Positions 11,816-17,298 of a stretch of 23,889 nt of DNA are shown here, piece after piece; the stretch's first letter is position 1; the number at the start of each line of letters is the position of its first letter. The position numbers and the translations under genes are program-made. Source of the stretch: a virus; the IMG/VR virus record IMGVR_UViG_3300031578_000332, positions 1 to 23,889 of that record. One strand, 5' to 3'. The notes under the pieces are model-generated. The model did no database searches, had not been told where the DNA came from, and worked only from the letters and a program-made list of their open reading frames with translations.

Positions 11816-11998
11816 TTATAAAACATCATCTGCAAAAGCTAATTGCTCAGGAGGGTTCTTTTCTTCATTTTCACATTCCATGAATGCAACATATTGTTTT
11901 AGCGTTAGTCTACGTGTTTCAGTTTTTGTAAACCCCCATTTGACTCTACAGCGGTAATGGATTTGATTGAAGTTAATTTTTTTTTTCTGTTGCACTAC
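11816..11998 (-). CDS. Tail assembly chaperone frameshift extension (gpT-like)
   Basis: A second open frame overlaps the end of the chaperone gene and has no start of its own. It is open from 11998, passes through a run of ten A (11986-11977 on the minus strand) and continues 53 codons past that run (INFNQIHYRCRVKWGFTKTE ... RRLTLKQYVAFMECENEEKN) to TAA at 11818-11816. It is +1 (equivalently -2) to the chaperone frame and lies just before the tape measure gene, the position of lambda gpG-T style extensions. Expected product: a fusion of the chaperone with this ~53-aa tail, about 178 aa, made by ribosomal frameshifting or transcriptional slippage on the A-run. Confidence 0.75.
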   Translation of the reverse strand, partial: VVQQKKKINFNQIHYRCRVKWGFTKTETRRLTLKQYVAFMECENEEKNPPEQLAFADDVL

Positions 11999-12353
11999 TT
12001 ACCTCGTCTTTAGTTTCAGGCAAGCTTTCCACAAAACATCTTGTCAAAACTGTCAATATTTTGTGCATATTTCTAAATGTTATCATTTTTCTAATTTCTG
12101 CTTCTGTAATTTCTTCGTCCATGTCACATAATCCAGCATAAACTAGTGTTACGAGTGCGTCCAAATCTTCCAAAGTTATGCCTTTTGCCATGTTATCCAT
12201 TACTTCAAAAGATTTCATTACGCTACCATGTGCCTTTGCTAATACCGCCATACCACCCATTCCATAGAGTAATATTCTTTTTTTACCACCTAATTTTATT
12301 GTTTCACCCATATAATCCATGTCATTTATGTCAAGTATTTCATTTTTATTCAT
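11973..12353 (-). CDS. Tail assembly chaperone (gpG-like)
   Basis: 126-aa protein, mostly helical and acidic, between the major tail protein and the tape measure, where siphophages encode the chaperone that coats the tape measure before tube assembly. Features: MNKNEILDINDMDYMGETIK, GGMAVLAKAHGS, then TLEDLDALVTLVYAGLCDMD and a helical FRNMHKILTVLTRCFVESLP. The zero frame ends EKKN-stop within an A10 run, the typical site for the longer frameshifted product (see 11816-11998). Start ATG 12353 follows GAGGTG. Assignment rests mostly on position and on the frameshift architecture. Confidence 0.8.
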   Translation of the reverse strand: MNKNEILDINDMDYMGETIKLGGKKRILLYGMGGMAVLAKAHGSVMKSFEVMDNMAKGITLEDLDALVTLVYAGLCDMDEEITEAEIRKMITFRNMHKILTVLTRCFVESLPETKDEVSSATEKKN

Positions 12354-12382
12354 ATCAACACCTCATTTTTTAAAAATTAAAA

Positions 12383-12398
12383 GGGGTATTGCTACCCC
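12383..12398 (-). terminator. Intrinsic terminator after the major tail protein unit
   Basis: In minus-strand RNA a perfect 6-bp stem GGGGUA/UACCCC closes a GCAA (GNRA) loop and is followed by UUUUAAUUUUU. It lies between the tRNA-like element and the chaperone gene, inside the late operon. It would end a share of transcripts and so raise major tail protein mRNA over downstream genes. Confidence 0.75.
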
Positions 12399-12407
12399 AA
12401 TTATAAA

Positions 12408-12489
12408 ACTTAACGTTCCCATCAAACACTGAAGGAGTTGAACCTTCTATTCAGCTACCGAGCTGTACGGAATCGAACCGTCATTAAGT
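12408..12489 (-). ncRNA. Candidate tRNA-like structured RNA (two T-loop arms and a D-arm-like arm)
   Basis: Directly after the stop codon of the major tail protein gene, the minus strand folds by inspection into a closed multi-branch structure. An 8-bp outer stem pairs 12489-12482 with 12415-12408 (one U-G). Inside are three hairpins: ACGG-UUCGAUU-CCGU (12481-12467), CAGCU-CGGU-AGCUG (12465-12452), and GAAGG-UUCAACU-CCUUC (12447-12431). Both 7-nt loops fit the tRNA T-loop consensus UUCRANY, and the middle hairpin with its surroundings resembles a D-arm (AGCUCGGUAGC). About 15 unpaired nt follow (12430-12416). It is not a real tRNA: there is no anticodon arm, and T-arms sit at both the first and last arm positions. 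A terminator follows. Function unknown; it may be a 3'-UTR element or a processed small RNA. Confidence 0.6.
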
Positions 12490-12490
12490 A

Positions 12491-13378
12491 TTATGCTGCT
12501 GTAAAGTTTGATACATTGATTGCTGCAAGCGCATTACCAGATTTGTCGACTACATTTGTAGTTGCAATTGCAATGTGTGCAACTGTTGTTAAGTCGCCAG
12601 TCGGATTGAACGTTACGACTGTATCATTTGTTGAGATACTAAGCACACCAACGATTGGAGTTCCATCCGATGCTATCATTACGAAGAAGTTTGAAGCAGT
12701 TACGCAACTTGGCAAAATTGCTTCCGAAAAAGTCCAAACAATGTTGTTAGATTTTGGAAATGCACCCTCTGTATCAACTGGGACAATTGTAACGGTTGGT
12801 GCTACGACATCAGGAGAAATATCACCAGTTGTAAACCAACCAGTTCCAGTACCAGCCACCCAACTTGCTGCGCTTTCATCCGCTATTCTTTTCCTTAATC
12901 CATCGTAGATTCTCTGTACTGCAATCCCAACTACTTTATCAGTTTGAGGACTTACTTTATCTTTTTTAGTCTCTAAATCATCATCAGATTCGCTGAATTT
13001 TACCTTTAGAAACTTATAGTATTTATACGTACTGTCTCTCTTTTTTGCCTTAAAAGATACCGCAAAAAATGGTTTAACATCACTTGAAGTTGGTGTTCTA
13101 ACTCCTGCAACCATAGTTTGACCATTTACATAAGCTCTTTCATCCTCTGTGAAATCTGTCAAATCAAGTGTGAGCTCACAGTCTCCATCATCGTCATATG
13201 TATCCACTACTATATCATCAGCATATTGCAGTTCCTGAGACGTTTTATTCTTTATCCCAGCTTTCATAAGTTTTTTAGTAAATGGAAATGCTACATCATA
13301 GGTTGTCGATACCGATGTGTCCGTTAATACCTTATGCATAACTAAATTTTCAATTCCAATTCTACTATTTGCAGCCAT
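12491..13378 (-). CDS. Major tail protein with C-terminal Ig-like domain
   Basis: Tail tube subunit of the phi13-type major tail family. Residues 1-~185 carry the family pattern (GIENLVMHKVLTDTS, LMKAGIKNKTSQELQYADD, CELTLDLTDFTEDERAYVNG, PFFAVSFKAKKRDSTYKYYK, then LETKKDKVSPQTDKVVGIAV). After a Gly/Thr linker, residues ~190-295 form a SbsA-type Ig-like (Big_5) domain: PDVVAPTVTIVPVDTEGAFP, IVWTFSEAI, VTFNPTGDL, VVDKSGNAL. Such add-on domains decorate the tube surface and often bind sugars weakly. Start ATG 13378 follows GGAGG. The structured RNA begins 2 nt after the stop codon. Confidence 0.9.
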   Translation of the reverse strand: MAANSRIGIENLVMHKVLTDTSVSTTYDVAFPFTKKLMKAGIKNKTSQELQYADDIVVDTYDDDGDCELTLDLTDFTEDERAYVNGQTMVAGVRTPTSSDVKPFFAVSFKAKKRDSTYKYYKFLKVKFSESDDDLETKKDKVSPQTDKVVGIAVQRIYDGLRKRIADESAASWVAGTGTGWFTTGDISPDVVAPTVTIVPVDTEGAFPKSNNIVWTFSEAILPSCVTASNFFVMIASDGTPIVGVLSISTNDTVVTFNPTGDLTTVAHIAIATTNVVDKSGNALAAINVSNFTAA

Positions 13379-17049: not shown

Positions 17050-17298
17050 TTATGCGTTTTTTGCACGAATCCATATTCTTTCACTGTAATTGTATTTGTC
17101 CTTAAATCTCTTTCTAGTCATACCATCCTTTACATCGTTAATCATTTCTTGCGTAATACTCTTTTGTCTATACGGACGTGGTTCTTGAAGCTTTTTTTTA
17201 GTTAATTCTGATGGTATATGTCCTTTGTGAGATTCCGATAATTTTTGTCTATGCTCATCTGATAATTTTCTACCTAGATAAAGGAGAGGGCATGTCAA
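17050..17298 (-). CDS. NUMOD3-motif small ORF, probable homing-endonuclease fragment
   Basis: 82 aa. Residues ~10-32 (GRKLSDEHRQKLSESHKGHI) match the NUMOD3 DNA-binding motif found in tandem in GIY-YIG and HNH homing endonucleases (S-x-E-H-[RK]-x-K-[LI]-S-x-x-x-K-G). The rest (RPYRQKSITQEMINDVKDGM ... FKDKYNYSERIWIRAKNA) looks like a small helix-turn-helix DNA-binding segment. No nuclease domain is present. The first possible start is TTG 17298, overlapping the previous stop, with no ribosome binding site; the frame also stays open upstream inside the neighbouring gene. Either a remnant of a mobile endonuclease or a small DNA-binding protein expressed by coupling. Confidence 0.5.
   Translation of the reverse strand: MTCPLLYLGRKLSDEHRQKLSESHKGHIPSELTKKKLQEPRPYRQKSITQEMINDVKDGMTRKRFKDKYNYSERIWIRAKNA

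Follow-up and report, generated by a model that had tools for sequence, protein, structure and literature searches.

Small phage RNAs that carry a T-arm and have no assigned function have been known since RNA C of phage T4, in the 1970s. RNA C is the stable RNA also called species 1 or band C, and RNA D is its neighbour. Its expression is late and its function obscure (PMC9697503, PMC3014915). In Pseudomonas phage PAK_P3 an abundant late RNA with an 11-nt T-loop sequence, sRNA2, was seen by RNA-Seq (PMC4933390). In the sRNA2 region (L408:42310-42436) a closing stem GCUGUGU/ACACAGC was read around the T-arm; judged from this pairing, sRNA2 as published appears to belong to a longer tRNA-like RNA that this stem closes, with the T-arm beside it. 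Lak megaphages contain tRNA introns that may themselves encode tRNA (PMC6784885). A literature search, with subscription journals mostly outside its reach, found no description of a class of phage RNAs with two T-arms.

The window analyzed here is the whole 23,889-nt stretch of IMG/VR virus record IMGVR_UViG_3300031578_000332 (positions 1 to 23,889), from a tailed phage. On its minus strand, between a tail protein gene and a tail chaperone gene, are two T-arm hairpins and a middle hairpin. An earlier reading without database searches (the sequence-only reading) had named the neighbouring genes correctly: the upstream gene encodes the major tail protein (12491..13378, minus strand; phrog_88, E=1.6e-31), and the downstream gene (11973..12353, minus strand) matches a tail protein/tail assembly chaperone (phrog_2115, phrog_4888). 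As that reading also stated, the element starts 2 nt past the stop codon and is followed by a terminator with a GNRA loop. This intrinsic terminator, GGGGUA-GCAA-UACCCC plus a U tract, occupies 12373..12398 on the minus strand (hairpin 12383-12398) and begins 32 nt past the second T-arm. Near the end of the chaperone gene (11970-11990, minus strand) there is an A run, AAAAAAAA, and a short reading frame that overlaps comes after it; judged from the sequence, this is likely to be a programmed frameshift of the kind common in tail chaperone genes. A short ORF near the capsid genes (17050-17298, minus strand) contains GRKLSDEHRQKLSESHKGH, which resembles a homing-endonuclease DNA-binding motif.

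The first T-arm-like hairpin, ACGG-UUCGAUU-CCGU (12467..12481, minus strand), has 4 bp, and the second, GAAGG-UUCAACU-CCUUC (12431..12447, minus strand), has 5 bp; the two were identified from the folds and a motif count, the first also directly from the sequence. Both loops fit UUCRANY, as had been claimed, and both motifs match GGUUCRANYCC perfectly, 35 nt apart. The window contains a single GGTTCRANYCC pair at 12-42 nt spacing, and dinucleotide shuffling of the whole window, repeated 100 times, never produced one, so the T-arm pair is not a product of chance. The middle hairpin, CAGCU-CGGU-AGCUG (12452..12465, minus strand), has 5 bp and GG in its loop, and is present in the minimum free energy (MFE) structure of a 101-nt fold and in the centroid structures. 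All three hairpins of the sequence-only reading were thus found, but the third, which it had likened to a D-arm, was rejected as such: it has a 4-nt loop and lies between two T-arms. The minus strand, to which the RNA had been assigned, is favored by energy (-22.8 kcal/mol, versus -17.7 kcal/mol for the plus strand) and by co-direction with the genes.

The 8-bp outer stem said to enclose the hairpins did not hold up. It pairs ACUUAAUG (12482..12489) with CGUUAAGU (12408..12415), both on the minus strand, and is no stronger than what shuffled flanks yield at best (P=0.40, or 0.04 when the stem has to abut T-arm 1). An alternative stem of equal energy competes with it, pairing UAUCAAAC (12506..12513, within the last codons of the tail gene) with GUUUGAUG (12420..12427), likewise on the minus strand, and is part of the MFE structure of the longer fold. 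This alternative is the nearest acceptor-like candidate; it starts 3 nt after T-arm 2, with a spacing that resembles other members of the wider class treated below, and in strength it, too, does not exceed chance (P=0.32). The two stems interlock (5' a, 5' b, 3' a, 3' b), and both at once would make a pseudoknot. The stability of the element fold is not unusual (z=-1.2; 24 of 200 shuffles equally good). The outer stem as proof of a closed cloverleaf was ruled out by the shuffled-flank test.

The phage has a length of 34.6 kb and is without tRNA genes according to ARAGORN, which found none in the window and none in the 12.7 kb that were read from the rest of a longer contig. For the element, the tRNA covariance model RF00005 was not reported at E<=10. 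The comparison with Rfam proposed in the sequence-only reading gave no match at the gathering cut-off among the families of Rfam 15, and the best sub-threshold matches were at chance level. Nothing significant was found by blastn of the element against phages. The pattern CTNGGTAG, searched in viral and bacterial collections, returned the identical contig plus other families only; patterns of this type matched 26 stretches of viral contigs, compared with 8 across the 257 Gb of bacterial and archaeal genomes. The blastn, pattern and tail-protein relative searches yielded no diverged homologue of the element. The sole other copy is on the longer contig of the same phage (L001/L197), which is identical over the 5.9 kb compared and adds no covariation; the window element therefore shows none.

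Two further tRNA readings were considered. T-arm 1 could be read as the anticodon arm of a class II tRNA (UUCGA = CGA), as ARAGORN reads the first arm in 6 of 129 viral loci among the matches listed. This was rejected for the window, where no D-arm exists, and as a general explanation, since in one related family (family A, below) the position corresponding to R57 varies between CGA and CAA, a change that is tolerable in a T-loop but not expected in an anticodon. An attP or tRNA 3'-end reading was set aside in view of the two T-arms, the lack of an acceptor end and the location inside structural genes.

Searching twice with the tail protein yielded no more than 24 loci, and the intergenic region was read in 19 relatives, whose tail proteins are 54-59% identical and more distant; those with names are Firmicutes phages and plasmid prophages. 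Apart from the window's own copy, no T-loop hairpin was found in the intergenic region of any of the 19 relatives read, and no T-arm motif in the records of eight relatives. In most relatives the stop codon is soon followed by a simple terminator-like hairpin, for example TAATTGATGGCGGGGGAAACCCCGCC. The sequence-only reading had looked to a position 3' of major tail genes in relatives and had named unrelated sequence beside the same tail genes as evidence against itself; unrelated sequence is what the 19 relatives carry at this locus. In the window, ATAATT stands before the terminator and ATAAT also stands before the element (12400-12404 and 12490-12494), a 5-bp repeat that by itself could be due to chance in AT-rich DNA. 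The simplest reading of the sequence is that the element represents an insertion of about 85 nt (12405-12489, minus strand) between stop codon and terminator, because ATAAT flanks it on both sides and its removal would bring the stop codon directly up to the terminator, the arrangement seen in relatives. Since the element looks like an insertion without counterpart in the relatives, neither covariation nor conservation is demonstrable at the locus.

Two families of RNAs with related architecture were recognized, and both are sound on their own, by covariation. Family A (L144:2094-2197 and 30 other loci, alignment A3) is an RNA of about 95 nt from uncultured phages, with the layout AGUCAGG...T-arm...GGGUAGCUCCC...T-arm...CCUGACU and neither D-arm nor anticodon arm. 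Its 31 sequences covary strongly: 98.5% of pair cells are paired, and 11 of 21 pairs have double changes, a value as high being reached in none of 500 shuffles. One member was scanned; it had no Rfam match at the element and was miscalled tRNA-Pro by ARAGORN. Family B (L274:6877-6987, L275:5841-5951, L220:815-925, L277:2660-2770 and others, alignment A4) comprises 21 sequences from phages and from bacterial and archaeal contigs, including an archaeal (Desulfurococcales) MAG and contigs that bear the names Pseudomonas sichuanensis and Asaia bogorensis. Its layout is GUGCC-T-arm-UCGYUGGYCGAGRCUUGGUAGRA-T-arm, with compensatory changes in both T-arms, and the elements are often followed by another UUGGUA hairpin.

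Both families share with the window two T-arms with GGUAG between them. Unlike the window, family A needs a stem of the AGUCAGG/CCUGACU type abutting T-arm 2, and family B needs UCGYUGGYCGAG between the arms. Against the family A model (R1) the window scored 18 bits (E=0.012), with several closing pairs broken. For the other feature of family B, two T-arms enclosing GRCUUGGUAGRA, the family B model (R2), trained without the window, gave it a borderline 38.5 bits (E about 1e-12 alone), a score that comes partly from the two T-arms themselves and an E-value that, like the others, is rough, having been obtained from a short calibration. In the R2 ranking the window stands below the members (at least 41 bits) and above the sequences judged to be non-members (at most 37.2 bits, except L260 with 44). 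The UCGYUGGYCGAG block that follows T-arm 1 in family B is deleted in the alignment of the window. Because the closing stem of family A is broken and the block of family B is missing, the window is filed under neither family.

A wider class was defined post hoc as a T-arm, a hairpin of at least 4 bp with GG in its loop, and a T-arm, within about 50 nt. The window meets this core with its 5-bp, CGGU-capped hairpin between two perfect T-arms. The class was assembled after the window had been seen, the motif patterns select for T-arms, and the samples are not independent; all figures for T-arm pairs in viral contigs are counts among the matches listed. In the first, unselected sample of 129 pairs (among the matches listed), ARAGORN recognized neither arm in 78, and 45 consisted of a true tRNA and an orphan second T-arm. 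A perfect 7-bp acceptor-like stem abuts T-arm 2 in 68 of 194 well-paired pairs, versus 15.9 with shuffled acceptor strands (among the matches listed; the 68 loci include many family A copies). Again among the matches listed, GG-loop hairpins between T-arms number 28 (17.2 expected), and pairing of at least 4 bp around GGTAG between T-arms occurs 11 times (2.8 expected), with the window itself accounting for two of the 11. Where GGU stands between the T-arms, 23 of 49 pairs have a GG-loop hairpin of at least 4 bp, against 5.1 expected among the matches listed, and the middle hairpin of the window has the same position and GG cap. Stem sequences vary while pairing is kept (GGCU-GGGU-AGCC, GCACU-UGGU-AGUGU, UCGAG-UGGU-CUCGG), although a few of the 49 are mutually related. 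GGTAG was dropped as a specific marker, being present in 6 of 129 pairs of the unbiased sample and not enriched, and the GG-capped hairpin was used alone.

The wider class of viral double T-arm RNAs is apparently broad, heterogeneous and undescribed. Its elements elsewhere adjoin helicase, polymerase, RNA ligase, RtcB, rIIB, portal and terminase genes, and some loci (L024, L039) have three or four T-arms. At one of these (L039:9930-10150, minus strand), a phage RtcB (tRNA splicing ligase) gene is followed immediately by four T-arm motifs within about 220 nt. In a tRNA-rich phage contig (L158:7685-8367), a double T-arm element and a GOLLD RNA are separated by a few hundred bases. An unannotated RNA of Streptococcus suis prophages is found with the late transcription regulator on one side and the terminase or portal genes on the other (phi5218, Javan577; contigs L046, L323, L350). 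Loci of this type are L403:700-812, L406:700-815, L350:2994-3108 and L323:1388-1500. Their middle hairpin shows a compensatory pair (AAGCA/TGCTT to ACGCA/TGCGT); in phiS10 and Javan570, as at L404 and L405, the acceptor 3' strand and the last T-arm are kept and the interiors differ. Many other class members have a convincing acceptor-like stem, often of at least 7 bp and abutting T-arm 2, whereas the outer stem of the window is within chance. The window element is a clean case of the middle hairpin, yet a weak representative of the class because no diverged copies exist. The tRNA-elbow-like RNA of undescribed architecture put forward in the sequence-only reading has indirect support, from the recurrence of the core well above chance, the covariation of two related families and the absence of an Rfam match; the enclosing stem is unsupported.

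The account that best explains the element as a whole, held with about as much confidence as doubt, is that it may be a lineage-specific, tRNA-elbow-like late RNA of the T-arm/GG-hairpin class. An RNA module of two T-arms flanking a GG-capped hairpin would have been inserted in this lineage between the stop codon of the tail protein gene and the terminator, and would be transcribed with the late tail operon. The GG of the middle loop might dock into one T-loop in the manner of tRNA G18/G19, giving a compact elbow. Host T-arm-binding proteins, such as the U54 methyltransferase, the psi-55 synthase TruB, RNase P and RNase Z, could recognize such a late RNA, and the module would probably act through them. 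It might be released and serve in trans, either as a decoy or as a stable RNA resembling a tRNA, with possible benefit to the phage, or might be retained and keep the 3' end of the tail mRNA protected. Action in trans is preferred over regulation of the tail genes because similar RNAs adjoin unrelated genes and the tail-gene relatives lack the element.

The main rival is a real possibility, if short of a probable one: a functionless tRNA-derived insertion made of fragments from one or two tRNA genes, T-arms and a scrap of a D- or variable arm, tolerated in a non-coding spot and not yet decayed. Its inserted appearance and its absence from all relatives read fit such a remnant, as do the lack of homologues in the searches made, the lack of a significant closing stem and the pairs of a real tRNA and an orphan T-arm in the viral sample (45 of 129 among the matches listed). 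Against a remnant, neither the covariance model nor ARAGORN matched the element, both T-arms and the hairpin between them show full pairing and fit the consensus in a phage without tRNA genes, and the same T-arm/GG-hairpin/T-arm order recurs elsewhere with different stem sequences. A cis element of the tail operon is improbable. Structured mRNA 3' ends are generally protective, and the position between stop codon and terminator, in the gene order first described, would suit either protection of the 3' end of the abundant tail-protein mRNA or tuning of read-through into the chaperone gene. The role proposed earlier for the tail-tube mRNA or for chaperone synthesis nevertheless finds no backing in the comparison: the relatives manage without the element, most with a terminator alone, related RNAs adjoin unrelated genes, and the existing terminator already supplies a structured 3' end. 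Chance likeness of ordinary hairpins to T-arms, to which the modest fold score (z only -1.2) and the outer stem might point, is highly improbable given the paired stems on both arms and the lack of any such pair in 100 window shuffles.

With the element read as an elbow-like late RNA, a wider proposal can be made tentatively, and is itself rather doubtful: phages of diverse kinds may make unrecognized late trans-acting RNAs, composed of two T-arms and a GG-capped hairpin, that imitate the tRNA elbow and occupy or redirect host proteins of tRNA processing, tRNA modification or tRNA-targeting defence, the window holding a compact member without anticodon. If RNAs of two T-arms around a GG-capped hairpin are a common class, orphan phage T-arm RNAs become testable as a group, and it can be asked what binds the elbow, and whether a tRNA-directed host defence is countered or tRNA processing is borrowed. 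The S. suis prophages are named genomes in which this can be asked.

Among the systems compared, the S. suis prophage RNA shares with the window the order T-arm 1, UGGU-capped hairpin and T-arm 2, at similar spacing and with no ARAGORN call; unlike the window, it forms a D-arm-like hairpin, one more hairpin and a clear acceptor-like stem of 7 bp (GGGAACA/UGUUCCC), and it occupies another genomic place. The tRNAs of Lak megaphages likewise include a phage tRNA-like RNA with a nested second tRNA-like unit, but are recognizable tRNAs with an anticodon, in large tRNA-rich genomes. PAK_P3 sRNA2 is comparable as a late, abundant phage RNA containing a T-loop sequence; it differs in having one T-arm, a position between two tRNA genes and a different interior, and its R2 score of 13 bits is near background. 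T4 RNA C, with 139 nt, one T-arm, a place in a tRNA cluster and a far more stable fold (z=-4.6), differs from the window element, and resembles it in being a phage small RNA that is not a tRNA and carries a perfect T-arm, CCGGG UUCGAAU CCCGG, at its end.
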